A stretch of DNA of 64,000 bases from Richelia intracellularis HH01 (GTDB taxonomy: Bacteria > Cyanobacteriota > Cyanobacteriia > Cyanobacteriales > Nostocaceae), in the NCBI RefSeq assembly GCF_000350105.1, contig NZ_CAIY01000027.1, forward strand, positions 186,001 through 250,000. Reading direction: 5' to 3'. The first letter of the stretch is position 1; each line of letters begins with the position of its first letter. This document shows positions 10,269-17,940 of this stretch, one piece after another. The position numbers were made by a program, and so were the translations under genes. A model generated the notes under the pieces. The model worked only from the letters and a program-made list of their open reading frames with translations. It searched no databases and had not been told where the DNA came from.

Positions 10269-11489
10269 ATGGCAATAGATAGAAAACGACAATTATTTCC
10301 ATCATCAATTCAATGGCATATTATTGTAGTCACTTCCATTACTGTAATAGTTGGACTAGTTTCTTTTTACAGTTATTCTAAACTCAGATCAAATACTACT
10401 AATCGAGCAGTAAAATTCCCGGAGAAAAGTCAGTTACTTAAAAATCAATCTACCAGAGGAGCAAGGGTTGCTATTACTGCTTTGGGAAATCTAGTTCCAG
10501 AGGGTGAAATTACTCAACTTTCTGCACCTAGTTCCTTAAGTGGGGTACGGGTAGAAAGATTACTGGTAAATGAAGGAGATAAGGTAAAGGCAGGACAGGT
10601 AGTTGCATGGTTGCAAGGATATACTAAAGCTGCTGCTGCATTGCAACAATCAAAAGACAATTTGAAAGTAGCAAAAGCAAAATTACTACAAGTTAAAGCA
10701 GGTGCAAAATCAGGAGATATAAATGCCCAACAAACAATTATTGAGCGTTTAAAACAACAATTACAAGGAGAAATTATCACTCAAAACACGATTATTACAC
10801 GTCTAGAAGCTCAAGTTAAACATGCTAAAACTGAAAATGATAGATATAAAAAGTTATATATAGATGGAGCCATAGCAGCTTCCATTACAGACTCAAAAAA
10901 ATTGCAACTAGAGACCTTACAACAAAAACTTAAACAGGCTAAAGCAAATCTAGATAATACTTGTAATAGTATTCAAAATCAATTGAAAGAGTCAAAAGCT
11001 AGACTTAATAGTATTAAAGAAGTACGGATGGTAGATGTTAATTTAGTAGAAGCTGAACTCAAAAGCGCCATGACTGCAGTGATGCAAGCAACAGCAGAAT
11101 GGAATTTAACCCATGTAATTTCTCCTATAGATGGAAAGGTTTTAAAAGTTCATGCAAAAACTGGGGAAGTTGTTGCCACATCTGGGATTGTAGAAATTGG
11201 CAAAACATCTCAGATGTACGTAATTGCAGAGGTATATCAAACAGATATTGAAAATGTTCGTATTGGACAAAAAGCAATTATTAGTAGTACGGCTTTTAAT
11301 AGACAGTTACAAGGAACTGTGGAAGATATTGGTTTATTGGTTGATAAGCAAAGTATCTTAAGTATTAATCCTGGGGCAGACACGGATAGGAGAATTATCA
11401 AAGTAAAAATACGTATTGATAATCTAGAAGATAGTCAAAAAGTTGCCAGACTAACTAACTTGCAAGTTGATGTAGCTATCAAAATTTAG
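10269..11489 (+). CDS. hgdB: HlyD/DevB-type membrane fusion protein HgdB
   Basis: A periplasmic adaptor of a DevBCA-like export system that moves heterocyst glycolipids across the cell wall. It has 406 residues. A membrane anchor spans about residues 18-36. A lipoyl-like half-domain follows (GVRVERLLVNEGDKVKAGQ, near 95-115), then a long Lys/Gln/Ala-rich coiled-coil hairpin (about 125-280). The second lipoyl half (SPIDGKVLKVHAKTGEVV) and a beta-barrel domain (YVIAEVYQTDIENVRIGQKA) complete the adaptor. It is first in a collinear hgdB-hgdC-hgdA cluster, with 62 bases before hgdC. No ABC ATPase gene is present here, as I recall for the Anabaena hgdBC locus, where the ATPase must come from elsewhere. 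The symbol rests on family plus gene order; plain devB is the alternative. Confidence 0.82.
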   Translation: MAIDRKRQLFPSSIQWHIIVVTSITVIVGLVSFYSYSKLRSNTTNRAVKFPEKSQLLKNQSTRGARVAITALGNLVPEGEITQLSAPSSLSGVRVERLLVNEGDKVKAGQVVAWLQGYTKAAAALQQSKDNLKVAKAKLLQVKAGAKSGDINAQQTIIERLKQQLQGEIITQNTIITRLEAQVKHAKTENDRYKKLYIDGAIAASITDSKKLQLETLQQKLKQAKANLDNTCNSIQNQLKESKARLNSIKEVRMVDVNLVEAELKSAMTAVMQATAEWNLTHVISPIDGKVLKVHAKTGEVVATSGIVEIGKTSQMYVIAEVYQTDIENVRIGQKAIISSTAFNRQLQGTVEDIGLLVDKQSILSINPGADTDRRIIKVKIRIDNLEDSQKVARLTNLQVDVAIKI

Positions 11490-11551: not shown

Positions 11552-12730
11552 ATGCTGTTTAAAACTCCCTTGGGATTGTTACAGTTAGCTAGAAACAAAA
11601 TTCGTTCTTTAGTAGCTGTAGCAGGTATTGGTTTTATTGTAATTTTAATGTTTATGCAACTTGGGTTTCAAGATGCGCTCTATTCCAGTGCTACCCAAGT
11701 ACACCGAAGCTTAAGGGGAGATTTATTTTTAGTTAGTTCTCAATATAAGTCCTTAACTGCCATTCAAAGTTTTTTTCGTAGTCGTTTATATCAAACACTA
11801 GGCTTTGAAGGTGTAGAGTCTGTCTCTCCGATGTATTTAGGATTTGCTAAGTTCAAAAATCCAGAGAATGGAGAGAAATATTCTATTTATGTAATTGGTT
11901 TTGAACCAGGTAAGCCGGTAATGAAGTTACCGGATGTTGAAGCTAATACTGATAAATTAAAAGTACCTGATGTAGTTCTGTTCGATAAAAACTCTCGTCC
12001 AGAATTTGGTAACGTTGCCAAAAAGTTCGAGGAAGAGAATAGAGAACAAGTCATTGAAATCTTCCCCTTTGATTCTTTACGGGGATATCAAGTTAGAGTG
12101 GGTGGCCTATTTAAATTAGGACCATCATTTGGTGTAGATGGCAACCTAATTGTCAGTGATACCACTTTTTTACGTATCTTTCCTAATAGTCGTCCCTCAG
12201 AAATTATTGATGTTGGGGTTGTCTGCCTCAAGCCAGACATAAATCCAAAGAAAGTCATAGCCAATTTACAAGCACAATTACCAAAAGATGTAAAAATATT
12301 CACTTACAATGACTTTATTAATTTTGAAAGGAAATATTGGGCAACACGAACCCCAATTGGTTTTATTCTTAATTTGATGTTAACTATGGCTTCCATAGTA
12401 GGAATTGTCATTGTTTATCAAATTCTCTACAGTAATATTTCTACTCAATTAACTGCCTATGCCACATTAAAAGCCATTGGTTATAAAAATAACTATCTGT
12501 TATTGATTGTTTTTCAACAGGCTTTTATATTAGCTGTAATAGCATATCTTCCAGGTTTTATTATTTCTGTATTGCTCTATGATTTTGCTATGGATGCGAC
12601 TAAGCTACCAATTATAATGAGTTATCAAAATGCAATTTTAGTATTGATATCATCAATATTAATGTGTATGACTTCTGGGGCATTTGCAATTAATAAACTG
12701 CGTTCTACAGATCCAGCAGATATCTTTTAG
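11552..12730 (+). CDS. hgdC: DevC-type ABC transporter permease HgdC
   Basis: The inner-membrane subunit of the DevBCA-like exporter, MacB/FtsX-type. It has 392 residues and begins MLFKTPLGLLQLARNKIRSL, typical of DevC proteins. There is one N-terminal membrane helix (about residues 20-38), a large periplasmic domain (about 45-260) and three C-terminal helices (about 266-292, 315-345, 355-380). A ribosome binding site AGAGG lies about 10 bases before the ATG. It is downstream of hgdB and 119 bases upstream of hgdA. It should pair with HgdB and an ATPase encoded elsewhere to export heterocyst envelope lipid. The ORF is intact. Confidence 0.82.
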   Translation: MLFKTPLGLLQLARNKIRSLVAVAGIGFIVILMFMQLGFQDALYSSATQVHRSLRGDLFLVSSQYKSLTAIQSFFRSRLYQTLGFEGVESVSPMYLGFAKFKNPENGEKYSIYVIGFEPGKPVMKLPDVEANTDKLKVPDVVLFDKNSRPEFGNVAKKFEEENREQVIEIFPFDSLRGYQVRVGGLFKLGPSFGVDGNLIVSDTTFLRIFPNSRPSEIIDVGVVCLKPDINPKKVIANLQAQLPKDVKIFTYNDFINFERKYWATRTPIGFILNLMLTMASIVGIVIVYQILYSNISTQLTAYATLKAIGYKNNYLLLIVFQQAFILAVIAYLPGFIISVLLYDFAMDATKLPIIMSYQNAILVLISSILMCMTSGAFAINKLRSTDPADIF

Positions 12731-12849: not shown

Positions 12850-13854
12850 ATGACTCATAAAAATAGAAATGTACTCATCACAGGTATTGATGAATTTATC
12901 GGTTTACGTACTGCAGAAAAAGCAATCACACAAGGAATGAAAGTATGCGGATTGCAAAGTTGTAAAAAACAGAAAAAAAATGTCCAGGATCTAGGTATTG
13001 ATATCATTGTTGGTGATATTAATGATCCAATGATAGCTCAAAAAGCTTGTCAGGGAGTTGATGTAGTTATACACACCCATGAACTTGCTAAAGAAGGAGG
13101 TGAAATAGAAGAATTTCGACAAGTAAATGTCAAAGGTACCATTAATATATCCAAAGCAGCAAAAAAGTCTGGAGTGAAAACTTTTATCCATATTTCTAAT
13201 GCTTTAGTGTATGGCTTTGATTATCCTCATCTTGCTACAGAGGATAGTAATCTTGTAGGAGAAAATAACCCTTACTGTGAAACTAAAATAGAAGCGGAAA
13301 AAGCATTATTAGAGCTGAATTCTCCCCCCAATTTTGGTGTAATCATTATTCGACCAGGAGATGTTTATGGACCAGGTAGTATCCCTTGGGTTGTAAGGCC
13401 AGTAATGCTTATGAAGCAGAAACTATTTGCATATGTTAATGATGGCTCTGGAATAATTAACCATTGCTATATTGACAACCTCATTGATGCCATGTTTCTC
13501 TCTATAGAGAAGCAGCCATATGGGGAAATATTTAATATTACTGATGGACAAGAAACTTCTTGTAAAACATATTTTAGCTACTTGGCAAAAATGACTAATT
13601 TACCTATACCTTTTGCACTACCAAAAGATGAATTAAAGCTATTTTTAAAATTACGTTATCAAGGACAAAAGTTATTCCGTAAGCCTGTAGACATTTTTCC
13701 AGAAGCTGTCGATTTTATGTCACGCCCACATGCATATTCTATTGATAAAGCACGAGATATCCTAAACTATGAACCTAGTGTAAATTTAGAACAAGGTTTG
13801 GAAATTACTAAACAATGGTTGCAGAAAACAAACTTAAAAGAAATAATTCTATAG
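12850..13854 (+). CDS. hgdA: NAD-dependent sugar epimerase HgdA
   Basis: An extended short-chain dehydrogenase/epimerase of 334 residues. In Anabaena the gene next to hgdBC encodes a UDP-galactose 4-epimerase needed for a normal heterocyst glycolipid layer. Visible features are the N-terminal Rossmann strand and loop (VLITGIDEFIG, residues 8-18), a serine-containing strand (HISNALVYG), the catalytic Tyr-x-x-x-Lys in YCETK and the family segment RPGDVYGPGS. The usual second glycine of the nucleotide loop (TGxxGFIG) is Glu here, which could weaken cofactor binding or be a local substitution. It is the third gene of the hgdBCA cluster. Assignment as HgdA relies on gene order. Confidence 0.78.
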   Translation: MTHKNRNVLITGIDEFIGLRTAEKAITQGMKVCGLQSCKKQKKNVQDLGIDIIVGDINDPMIAQKACQGVDVVIHTHELAKEGGEIEEFRQVNVKGTINISKAAKKSGVKTFIHISNALVYGFDYPHLATEDSNLVGENNPYCETKIEAEKALLELNSPPNFGVIIIRPGDVYGPGSIPWVVRPVMLMKQKLFAYVNDGSGIINHCYIDNLIDAMFLSIEKQPYGEIFNITDGQETSCKTYFSYLAKMTNLPIPFALPKDELKLFLKLRYQGQKLFRKPVDIFPEAVDFMSRPHAYSIDKARDILNYEPSVNLEQGLEITKQWLQKTNLKEIIL

Positions 13855-14119
13855 ACAAATAGTAATTATAGTTTTTATTCTTTGTCTGGTTGCATCTACT
13901 ATTTTCTAAAAAATAATTAATTCTCATTAACAAGTGTTCCTAAATTTAACTGTAATTTATAAAAAATATGTTAGATAGTATCATAGACAAATAATTTTTC
14001 ATGCTTTTTTCAAAACATATATCATATTTGATTGAGATAACTCAGTTTGTATCTTTTTATTTCTTCATAATTAAGTAAAATTGAGATAGATATTTTATAT
14101 ATCTGAAAAATAATTTAGA

Positions 14120-15099
14120 GTGAGTATTGGTTTACCTATATATGATAGTGAAAACTTTATGAAAGAAGCTATAGACTCAATCTTTGTACAAACTTTTACC
14201 GATTTTGAACTGATTATTTCTGATAATGCCTCTACTGAGAGTACTGAATCTATTTATCAAGAATATGTAGCAAAATACTCCCGTGTAAGATACTATAAAA
14301 ATGATATCCTTGGCGGTGCTCCAAATTATCACCGGACTTTTGAATTATCTACTGGTGAGTATTTTAAATAGGCAGCCCATGATGATGTGATTGCTCCAGA
14401 TTTTATTAGTAAATGTGTTGCAATATTAGAAATCCTGACACAGTTTTATATCATTCTCTTATTTCTTGCATTGATGAAAGTAGTAATTTTATTAGAAATA
14501 ATAATGTCCATCTCCATAAGTATTTATCAAAAATAAATGTGAGATTCCACGAGTTATTAGCTAAAAATCTGTGCTATCCAATTTTTGGATTGATTCATTC
14601 TAGTACTTTGAAAAGTATAACTCTTCAAGGTATTTATAGAACTGCAGATGCTATTTTCTTATTAAGACTAGCAATGTTAGGAAAGTTTTATGAAATACCT
14701 GAATATCTTTTCTTTTTATGCAGTCATCTAAAACAATCATTAAGCATTTTATTTCCAGACCATATGTCATTTATTGATAATAATCATAAATATATATTAG
14801 GTCTATTACCTGATCTATATGGTTATGAAAAATGGTTCGATTCATCCAATAATGAAAGCAAATTATTATTTCAGTATTGGCGTGTGTTTTGGGAATATTT
14901 ACGTTCTGCATGGCTAGTGACAATGATTTGCTATGAGTGCTTCTGTTATCATATAAGTCTTATTAAACAATTTAAGGGTATACAACCACTCCTATTTAAG
15001 GATTTCATCGCTGCTAAAATATTATGGGGAAAATTTACAAAATATAAAACTGCTGATACACTTGCTATAATAGTAAATATAATTCAATATCCCAAATAA
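14120..15099 (+). pseudogene. Broken family-2 glycosyltransferase, probable hglT remnant
   Basis: Two collinear fragments of one glycosyltransferase. The first (14120-14371, 83 codons) has the GT-A start SIGLPIYDSENFMKEAIDS and the nucleotide-sugar region QTFTDFELIISDNAST. It ends at a TAG (14369-14371) exactly where related proteins have Trp in GEYFKWAAHDD; reading on in frame gives AAHDDVIAPDFISKCVAIL. Near 14430-14436 the frame shifts, and the rest (to 15099) continues as NPDTVLYHSLISCIDESS down to FYEIPEYLFF. The first codon is GTG, and a stop lies just upstream, so the native N-terminus is also missing. It sits just after hgdA, the position I recall for hglT, the glycosyltransferase that sugars heterocyst glycolipids in Anabaena. 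The family call is strong; the hglT identity is inferred from synteny. Confidence 0.8.
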
Positions 15100-15894
15100 G
15101 AAGTATGTATTTGTTTATATCCTAGGAGAATGGATCTATTTTAGAAGCTTAAAGCCTTCGCAGGGGTATTTCTAACGGAACTATAAGTCATTCACTTTAA
15201 ATGCCTATTTCCTAGCTTAAAATATGGAAAATATACCGTTACCATTATTCATAAAAAATGTGTAAAGTAAAATAAATTGATATACTTTGATATTGCTAGA
15301 AGAAGATTTAGAATCTCTAATAATTATAAAGCCTCAATTAAAATAGGTATATACTTATTACATTGATGCTGATTTTACTCTTAATGGAAATAACAACATT
15401 AATATTTATATAAAATATAACTAGATTGAAATTGAATTATTGAGTGAGTTTGGTCAGCCTATGGGAAATACTACTGTTATGCGTAAATATTTTTATTTCA
15501 TAGCTGTTCTTATTTTTCTATTGCTTAGATATAGTAAAATGCAAAATTTGATACAAATATCATGAATAATTGATGATTATAATTACAATTATTGTTTTTA
15601 TTTTAAATAAACTAAGCTAAATGCAATAAGATATACAAACAAACCAGTCAATGTAATATATGGCTAAGATCTATTATAGACAATAATCATAAGTACCGAT
15701 GAAAAATATTTTTTCCCTTTCACATATAGGCTCTAGCAATTTCTGGCATATGAACCCTACTAATTGCTAGGAACAAAGGTAAAATCATAATCTTCAAGAG
15801 TTTTTTTGTATATTAGTTTAATAGTTGATTATATTTCAGTTTAAAACCTGGGCAAAATTAGCATAATTTGTGATGCGGTTACGTCCTTTAACTC
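15100..15894. other. Non-coding spacer
   Basis: About 800 bases of AT-rich DNA between the glycosyltransferase remnant and the kinase gene. No gene, RNA or clear repeat is seen. Confidence 0.55.
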
Positions 15895-17940
15895 ATGATC
15901 TGCTGCCTTAATCCTGATTGCCCTAATCCTCTTAACCCTGATAAAAGAAAGCTTTGTCAAACCTGTGGCACTCCTCTGGTGTTACTACTACGAAACCGTT
16001 TTCGTGTGATTAGGGTGCTTTCTGATGAGGGAGGATTTGGTAGAACTTACTTAGCAGAGGATATTGACAAGCTAAATGAAAACTGTGTTGTCAAACAATT
16101 AGCACCCAAATTCCAAGGTACTTGGGCAATTTCCAAGGCTATGGAGCTTTTTCAAAAAGAAGCACGACAACTCAAACAGCTTGGAGAGCATTCTCAAATT
16201 CCTACTTTATTAGCTTACTTCGAACAAGACAACTATATGTTCTTGGTACAGCAATTTATCGATGGTCATAACTTATTAAAAGAATTACAGTGGAAAGTAT
16301 CTTATACATCAGAAGATATTAAAGATATTTTATTGAGTTTATTACCTGTACTCAAGTTTATTCATGATCATGGAGTCATACATCGTGATATAAAACCCCA
16401 AAATATTATACGTCGTCAAAGTGATGGACGATTATGTTTAATTGACTTTGGTTCTTCCAAGCAATTGACAGCCAGAGTACAGATGAGAACGGGTACTTCT
16501 ATTGGTTCTCATGGTTATTCACCCTTAGAACAAATTAGAGATGGTGCAGCTTATCCCGCTAGTGATTTGTTTAGTTTAGGGGCTACTTGTTTCCATTTAT
16601 TGGCTGAAACTTCTCCATTCCAACTATGGATGGAACATGGTTACAGTTGGGTAAAAAATTGGTGTAAGTACTTACGCACTCCTATCGATAGAAATCTAGC
16701 TAAAACATTAGATAGACTTCTGCAAAAAGATATAAAGTATCGGTATCAATCAGCAAATGAAGTCCTCCTAGAACTAATAGCTAATATGGAAGTAACTCCT
16801 GCTTTTATAACAGAAGAAACTGTAGCAGGTACCCTCCCCAAATTACCAAGTCAATTACCAATTACTCCTAAAAAGTATTTCAAATTAATTAATATATTAG
16901 TTGTAATTTTTACAGTGTCTATGTTAGGTCTGGGTGAGTTTTGGTATAAACAGTATATTCATATAGAAAGTAGTATTTATACTAATAGTAATAAGCAAAA
17001 CCACCAAAAGGTTAATAGTCCTCATGCCTCAACTACAGCTTCTGCAAATTCCTGGAAAAGTTTTTCTTTAGCTAATACATTGGAAGATAAAAATCAACCT
17101 ATAGCTTGCTTTGCATTTAGTCCAGACGGTACTACTATTGCCAGTGCAAGTAATCAGGCCATTAAATTGTGGAGTGGTAAAACTGGACAGGAAATATCTA
17201 TTTTAGAGGGACACTCTGAGCTGGTTAATACCTTAGCTATCAGCCCTGATGGGAAAACCCTTGTCAGTGGAAGTGACGATAGTACTATTAAGTTATGGAA
17301 CTTAGCAACAGGTCAGGAAGTTAGGACTTTTTCCGGGCATAAGAGTGGAGTAAATGTTCTGGCTTTCAGTAATGATGGACATATCTTAGCAGACGGGAGT
17401 ACAGGCGGAACAATAAGACTATGGAACTTATTGACTAGGAAGGAAATGCTTGCGATTACCAAGCACAAGGGAAAAATAACTAGTTTGATTATTGCCCCTG
17501 ATAATAAAATCTTGATTAGTGGGAGTGATAACAGTACCATACAACTATGGTATTTGGTTTCTGGTAAAAAAATTCTAACTCTCCAAGGACATTTGGGAGA
17601 AATTACCAGCTTAGCTATTACTCCCGATGGCAAGACACTTATTAGTGGGAGTAATGACAAAACGATTAAACTGTGGAATTTGAAATCTGGCAAACAAGTT
17701 TCCACATTTAGGGGTCATGTGGGGAAAGTAAATGCTCTGGTAGTCGCACCTAGTGGCAAAATCCTAGCTAGTGGTGGTGATGATAACGCTATTAAACTAT
17801 GGGAACTCGAATCTGGTAGGCAAATTACTACTCTTAAAGGACATGAGCAAGGAATAAAGGTAGTTGCTTTCAGTCAGGATGGTAAAACTCTAATGAGTGG
17901 TTCAAAAAAAATGATGAAAATTTGGGAGATTAATCGTTAG
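15895..17940 (+). CDS. Serine/threonine protein kinase with C-terminal WD40 repeats
   Basis: A 681-residue membrane-anchored eukaryotic-type kinase of the kind common in filamentous cyanobacteria. It starts with a small zinc-ribbon-like segment with paired cysteines (CLNPDCPNPLNP and CQTCGTP, residues 4-25). The kinase domain (about 36-300) has a glycine loop (GGFGRTYLAED), a lysine in VVKQLAP, the catalytic loop HRDIKPQN and DFGSSK. A single membrane segment lies near 328-350. Seven WD40 repeats (about 398-681, each ending near IKLW or IRLW) should form a seven-blade propeller. Signal and target are unknown. Most catalytic residues are present, so it is likely active. It stands alone and is followed by a small hairpin. 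Confidence 0.88.
   Translation: MICCLNPDCPNPLNPDKRKLCQTCGTPLVLLLRNRFRVIRVLSDEGGFGRTYLAEDIDKLNENCVVKQLAPKFQGTWAISKAMELFQKEARQLKQLGEHSQIPTLLAYFEQDNYMFLVQQFIDGHNLLKELQWKVSYTSEDIKDILLSLLPVLKFIHDHGVIHRDIKPQNIIRRQSDGRLCLIDFGSSKQLTARVQMRTGTSIGSHGYSPLEQIRDGAAYPASDLFSLGATCFHLLAETSPFQLWMEHGYSWVKNWCKYLRTPIDRNLAKTLDRLLQKDIKYRYQSANEVLLELIANMEVTPAFITEETVAGTLPKLPSQLPITPKKYFKLINILVVIFTVSMLGLGEFWYKQYIHIESSIYTNSNKQNHQKVNSPHASTTASANSWKSFSLANTLEDKNQPIACFAFSPDGTTIASASNQAIKLWSGKTGQEISILEGHSELVNTLAISPDGKTLVSGSDDSTIKLWNLATGQEVRTFSGHKSGVNVLAFSNDGHILADGSTGGTIRLWNLLTRKEMLAITKHKGKITSLIIAPDNKILISGSDNSTIQLWYLVSGKKILTLQGHLGEITSLAITPDGKTLISGSNDKTIKLWNLKSGKQVSTFRGHVGKVNALVVAPSGKILASGGDDNAIKLWELESGRQITTLKGHEQGIKVVAFSQDGKTLMSGSKKMMKIWEINR

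Follow-up and report, generated by a model that had tools for sequence, protein, structure and literature searches.

HglT (All5341) of Anabaena PCC 7120 is a glycosyltransferase whose gene lies towards that end of the heterocyst glycolipid (hgl) island which carries hgdA. The excerpted text of PMC2211374 places this protein among the waaG-type, group-1 transferases, and the coordinates given there make its gene 1266 bp long. The table of GT2-domain proteins of PCC 7120 in the same excerpt closes with all5342 and all5343, and all5344 does not appear in it. All5341 is likewise a group-1 glycosyltransferase in PMC4365693, which calls all5344 unknown.

For Richelia it is already in print, in the main text of PMC11804610, that members of the genus without hglT have pentose glycolipids. 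That text reports hglT as absent from three Richelia species, and two of the three, HM01 and RC01, have exclusively pentose head groups. It also reports that no pentose lipid was made when RINTHH_5560, 5570, 17770 and 20790 were expressed in Anabaena mutated in hglT. Ribose has been described in Hemiaulus-associated Richelia (PMC8969518, in excerpt). The enzyme that adds the pentose to the Richelia glycolipids is still sought, and the lipids themselves are proposed markers for diatom-diazotroph associations.

The window analysed here, a stretch of 64,000 nucleotides from the genome of Richelia intracellularis HH01, contains part of the hgl island of this symbiont. A preliminary description of this DNA had read the gene after hgdA as a broken hglT. 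We find instead a real pseudogene under the wrong name, the product of ordinary endosymbiont gene decay. Taken as a whole, our reading is that the locus is a decayed accessory GT2 gene distinct from hglT, that hglT and all5343 are absent from five genomes, and that the GT2 had the role and history proposed below; we give this reading a probability of roughly 0.87. It shares with the main text of PMC11804610 the absence of hglT; we found in that text no description of this pseudogene, or of all5343 being absent as well.

A decayed accessory GT2 gene beside hgdA

Lesions were called by alignment with three close intact genes, from R. intracellularis RC01, Richelia (Calothrix) rhizosoleniae SC01 and the genome G071 (Table 1). 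The intact form of the gene encodes about 332 residues, the RC01 and SC01 relatives being 332-aa PF00535 proteins. The three defects named in the preliminary description were all confirmed: the lack of a proper start, which is compounded by an early in-frame TAA, the Trp-to-stop change, and the frameshift, which proved to be a 4-nt deletion. At each of these sites the copies of RC01, SC01 and G071 are intact. Two single-codon deletions, near 14304 and 15004, were also found in the same alignment. The gene is intact in RC01, SC01, G071 and G033 and broken in HH01 by four lesions that destroy its start or frame. With several independent disabling lesions relative to intact relatives, it is a pseudogene.

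Table 1. Features of the hgl island in the HH01 window (window coordinates)
Feature	Position	Strand	Basis and remarks
hglE, first 1288 codons	1..3864	-	frame open up to window edge
hgdB, intact	10269..11489	+	Pfam search and open frame
hgdC, intact	11552..12730	+	Pfam search and open frame
hgdA, intact epimerase	12850..13854	+	Pfam search and open frame
Accessory hgl-island GT2 pseudogene	14099..15099	+	70-71% identity, in two frames, to the intact RC01 gene (L053:2644-3642); PF00535 on N-fragment
ATA replacing RC01 start ATG (MSKKQPKVSIG)	14099..14101	+	alignment and frame translation
In-frame TAA (CAA in RC01)	14111..14113	+	alignment and frame translation; missed in the preliminary description
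TAG nonsense codon (TGG in RC01, SC01 and G071)	14369..14371	+	alignment
His-Asp-Asp codons of WAAHDD segment	14378..14386	+	frame translation; between the two ORFs, in neither
C-terminal fragment ORF, 228 aa	14413..15099	+	71% identical to RC01 residues 107-321
4-nt deletion (frameshift) relative to RC01, SC01 and G071	14430..14431	+	alignment
DUF2141 gene remnant (taken as the all5344 position)	15031..15348	+	one TAG and three TAA; overlaps end of GT2 pseudogene
Protein kinase/WD40 gene	15895..17940	+	Pfam search; next gene in RC01 as well

Two pieces of the gene remain open. The N-fragment (14120-14371) matches Glycos_transf_2 (PF00535) with an E-value of 4.8e-15, and the C-fragment, which contains no further stop, gave nothing at E <= 0.001 in the Pfam search. 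The His-Asp-Asp codons that fall between them encode what we take to be the DxD-like motif of GT2 enzymes. In the survey of 80 genomes described below, the window match was scored with two stops, one TAG and one TAA.

Upstream of the pseudogene the frames of hgdB, hgdC and hgdA are all open in the window, in agreement with the preliminary description. Its statement that hglE is also intact holds for the first 1288 codons, which are all that the window contains of the gene; just outside the window, the 3' part is divided between two frames where nine A follow one another (L082:18071-18105; C64 about 185,071-185,105). This split may be a sequencing or read error, or slippage. The same HH01 island has a ketosynthase-like gene that is also split, close to seven consecutive A (L082:14311-14455), and in RC01 one frameshift interrupts hgdA where the sequence is rich in A (L053:1776-1800). 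All three of these A-run breaks may be read errors.

Identity and distribution of the island glycosyltransferases

In the Nostoc contig L044 the order of genes is hgdA, GT2, DUF2141, a 419-aa HpnI-like GT2 and a 425-aa GT4, the GT4 being the fourth gene after hgdA. In genome G048 it is hgdA, DUF2141, an all5343-like gene and GT4, without the accessory GT2. Judged by published family, size and order, the GT4 fits hglT, the 419-aa GT2 probably corresponds to all5343 and the DUF2141 gene to all5344, and the window GT2 appears to be an extra gene with no counterpart in the published PCC 7120 tables. Like HglT it is a glycosyltransferase at the hgdA end of the island; unlike that group-1 (GT4) enzyme it is a GT2, with orthologues of its own in genomes that also carry hglT. 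The N-fragment and the intact RC01 and SC01 orthologues all match PF00535, and the Nostoc GT4 taken as hglT matched none of the window ORFs at E <= 1e-3. The window GT2 and this GT4 are therefore different genes, and the name hglT has to be withdrawn, the fragments being closer to an unrelated GT2 family whose members have their own place beside hgdA. In a tree the window gene groups with those of RC01, SC01 and G071 at a fork with 100/100 support, the HH01 row being a long branch that the program flags.

The all5343-type GT2 (HpnI-like, about 420 aa) shares with the window gene its GT2 domain, the island and a position downstream of hgdA, but it is longer, is a separate gene in Nostoc L044, and was not found in HH01, RC01 or SC01. 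Its best NCBIfam model, HpnI, scores far under the cut-off (84 vs 310 bits). For the intact GT2 of RC01 and SC01, the top-scoring NCBIfam models include those of the TuaG, EpsE and PglI type; these cover only the N-terminal 120-137 residues and score 67-80 bits against cut-offs of 400-500, so that the RC01 and SC01 proteins are not members of those families.

We surveyed 80 genomes of the family, drawn from a larger group and including HH01 (G000), RC01 (G001) and SC01 (G024), with cut-offs of E <= 1e-60 for hglT and E <= 1e-40 for both the all5343-like gene and the GT2. An hglT orthologue was present in 72 genomes (five of the matches listed contain a stop), an all5343-like gene in 69, and the GT2 in 45, the broken window copy counted; hglT was also carried by 39 of these 45. 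GT2 and hgdA are neighbours on a single contig in 44 of these 45 (30, and 14 of a further 15), G064 having the two genes on separate contigs, and in Nostoc and Calothrix contigs the GT2 is directly downstream of hgdA. Among 38 stretches (the 30 best matches plus named contigs, with RC01 and SC01 represented twice and the window copy once), the GT2 is accompanied by hgdA in 37 and has DUF2141 downstream in 36; in L048 and L049 another gene stands between GT2 and DUF2141. The window gene also adjoins hgdA and precedes DUF2141, and is thus a decayed copy of an accessory GT2 of the hgl island with a fixed place in the order hgdA, GT2, DUF2141. An internal stop was found in only one other island copy among the 45, that of G067 (one TGA). 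G038, which keeps hglT, has a remnant of the first 80 GT2 residues that falls below the cut-off.

No hglT was found in eight of the 80 genomes (G000, G001, G024, G025, G033, G047, G071 and G073), and no all5343-like gene in 11, including G000, G001, G024, G071 and G033. Both are missing from seven, namely HH01, RC01, SC01, G025, G033, G071 and G073, the last of which has no close hgdA either; G047 lacks hglT and keeps an all5343-like gene and the GT2. Neither the GT4 nor the all5343-type glycosyltransferase was thus found in HH01, RC01, SC01, G071 or G033, so the two are missing together in the whole of this group, and the absence of hglT extends to further genomes, G071, G033 and others. G025 and G047 are two further relatives without an hglT orthologue. 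Presence of the GT2 is not significantly tied to absence of hglT (6 of 7 genomes vs 39 of 72, Fisher p 0.23, G073 having been dropped before the count).

The preliminary description had proposed a search for an intact hglT elsewhere in HH01. A search of the whole assembly (3.24 Mb in 90 contigs, about 89% complete) found no orthologue, indicating that hglT is absent rather than present and broken, and a search of plasmids gave only matches below 60% identity.

After the DUF2141 gene, the protein kinase/WD40 gene comes next in both HH01 and RC01, so that the all5343-hglT block is physically absent here. Since the SC01 and G071 contigs end just after DUF2141, the absence of hglT in these two rests on the whole-genome search. 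SC01 and G071 still have an intact DUF2141 gene, whereas the RC01 gene is split and that of HH01 is reduced to a four-stop remnant, a series of stepwise erosion. A transposase (DDE_Tnp_1 and DUF772 pieces, L053:3954-4872) separates the GT2 of RC01 from its broken DUF2141 gene. In G033 (L086 6926-13321) the ORFs after DUF2141 are unrelated and, to judge by appearance, may be phage-like, and the Calothrix-type islands L047, L048, L049, L050-L052 and L054 have a 634-656 aa protein downstream of hgdA.

Genes used in the published expression test

The genes expressed in the Anabaena hglT mutant were compared with HH01 loci. A published passage gives RintHH_20770 as a SulP gene. The only unsplit SulP gene of HH01 is on contig C7, where it is followed on the same strand by one ORF and then by a GT4 gene (ORFs >= 80 aa), which is the best hglT-like match in the HH01 genome. 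The possible starts of this GT4 gene lie at exactly 0 and 39 bp, and the main text of PMC11804610 says likewise of RINTHH_20790. Because it stands next but one to the intact SulP gene and has starts 39 bp apart, it is very likely RINTHH_20790. The window N-fragment, which has an in-frame ATG 39 bp in, was considered for the same name and rejected, the C7 gene fitting instead.

RINTHH_5560 and 5570 lie close together, with an intergenic region of 42 bp according to the main text of PMC11804610. The two window fragments are 41 bases apart (14413 minus 14371 = 42), and we think it probable that they are this pair. The window and ten HH01 stretches with glycosyltransferase matches were screened for gaps of 40-43, and 18 of the 20 PF00534/PF00535 matches of HH01 (two being without a locus) for gaps of 41 or 42; no pair in this set has a gap of exactly 42 bp. 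Other pairs with gaps of 41 or 43 were a GT4 and a Wzz gene (C86), an AAA ATPase pair (C7), an MFS gene pair (C39), a short ORF with an epimerase-like piece (C42, one of two C42 pairs), a radical-SAM gene with a GT2 (C60), and a GT2 with a 66-aa ORF (C47). Among the gap pairs examined, which include that one of the two C42 pairs, only the window pair has both members from a glycosyltransferase. The contig of the window, C64, has no other PF00534/PF00535 match. If RINTHH_5560 and 5570 are the fragments, neither the single constructs nor the joint one could have made the full enzyme, and the published negative result would be uninformative as to the intact GT2 of RC01 and SC01.

Order of gene losses and the pentose head groups

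Trees of the GT2 and of hgdA both place HH01, RC01, SC01 and G071 in one group, with G033 as sister. The end branch of HH01 is 0.14 in the hgdA tree, against 0.12 for RC01; in the GT2 tree it is 0.43, against 0.067, although it is partly swollen there by unalignable last residues and the tree program flags the row as unsure. On the HH01 branch dN/dS was 0.20-0.24 for the GT2, 0.066 for hgdC and 0.024 for part of hgdA. These ratios are weak evidence of decay, since the GT2 value is well under 1 and ratios of 0.12-0.24 were obtained for the RC01 branch of the GT2 and of 0.144 for the kinase gene in the pair HH01-RC01. They suggest that the GT2 was constrained for most of the HH01 branch and broke late.

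As all five genomes are without hglT and four of the five have an intact GT2, the simplest order is that hglT was lost first and the GT2 was broken later, on the HH01 branch alone; separate losses of hglT in these lineages are a possible alternative to a single early one. Most simply, then, the break in the GT2 is a later, separate event and not the cause of the pentose head groups, because the absence of hglT is common to relatives in which the GT2 is intact. Of the link drawn in the preliminary description between loss of a hexosyltransferase and the pentose head group, the general part stands, in that hglT is absent and the link is in print in the main text of PMC11804610, but the lost gene is not this one. 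We propose that the intact GT2 would be an optional decorating enzyme, transferring a sugar from a nucleotide-sugar to a lipid of the envelope or a related acceptor. Together, hglT and all5343 would have been lost once, before HH01, RC01, SC01, G071 and G033 split, and another enzyme may then have taken over head-group transfer. While the Hemiaulus symbiont was moving into the cytoplasm and losing genome size, the island would have eroded further at its downstream end, DUF2141 going before the GT2.

The original explanation, that the broken gene is hglT and that its loss turned the head group from hexose to pentose, does concern a glycosyltransferase encoded within the hgl island, in a lineage with pentose glycolipids. 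It is now extremely improbable, given that HglT is a group-1/GT4 enzyme, that the GT4 gene is separate and co-occurs with the GT2 in 39 genomes, and that RC01, reported in the main text of PMC11804610 to have pentose glycolipids only, nevertheless has an intact GT2. With one wrong explanation of the pentose lipids removed, the ground is cleared for finding the pentosyltransferase. The intact GT2 of RC01 and SC01 could be that missing enzyme, HH01 having lost it and either using another enzyme or differing from HM01. With hglT and all5343 both lost, it is the glycosyltransferase still found beside hgdA in RC01, SC01, G071 and G033, and the published negative test, as described in that main text, may have used two dead HH01 fragments. 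On such an account hglT and all5343 were lost as a unit, the GT2 after hgdA became the pentosyltransferase, and a screen that drew on HH01 missed it. We regard both the enzyme assignment and this fuller account as unlikely: Hemiaulus symbionts are reported, in the excerpted sources, to have ribose or pentose glycolipids although the HH01 GT2 is dead, the GT2 occurs also in 39 of the 72 hglT-bearing genomes, and in the comparison above its presence is not significantly tied to absence of hglT. The intact gene of RC01 (L053:2644-3642) or SC01 (L042:1477-2475) can nonetheless be named as a directly testable candidate.

It is very unlikely that the lesions are sequencing or assembly errors and that the living strain has an undamaged GT2. 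Other hgl genes of the HH01 assembly do have single frameshifts at A runs, as RC01 hgdA has in an A-rich stretch, and the excerpted text of PMC8776783 put the fragmented BicA gene of HH01 down to incomplete sequencing or gene erosion. Against this, the GT2 has four independent lesions, among them two nonsense substitutions and a 4-nt deletion outside any homopolymer, and its protein branch in HH01 is six-fold longer than that of RC01. None of its frame-breaking changes is a homopolymer indel, in contrast to the breaks in hglE, the ketosynthase-like gene and RC01 hgdA.

A UbiA-type (ribose-phosphate) route to the pentose was considered, and no extra UbiA genes were found, HH01 having five matches and RC01 four, compared with 5-8 in six other genomes. 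Elsewhere in the HH01 assembly, another GT2 match (G000:C58:62388-62777, L007) contains two internal stops, which suggests a wider decay of glycosyltransferases in this symbiont.
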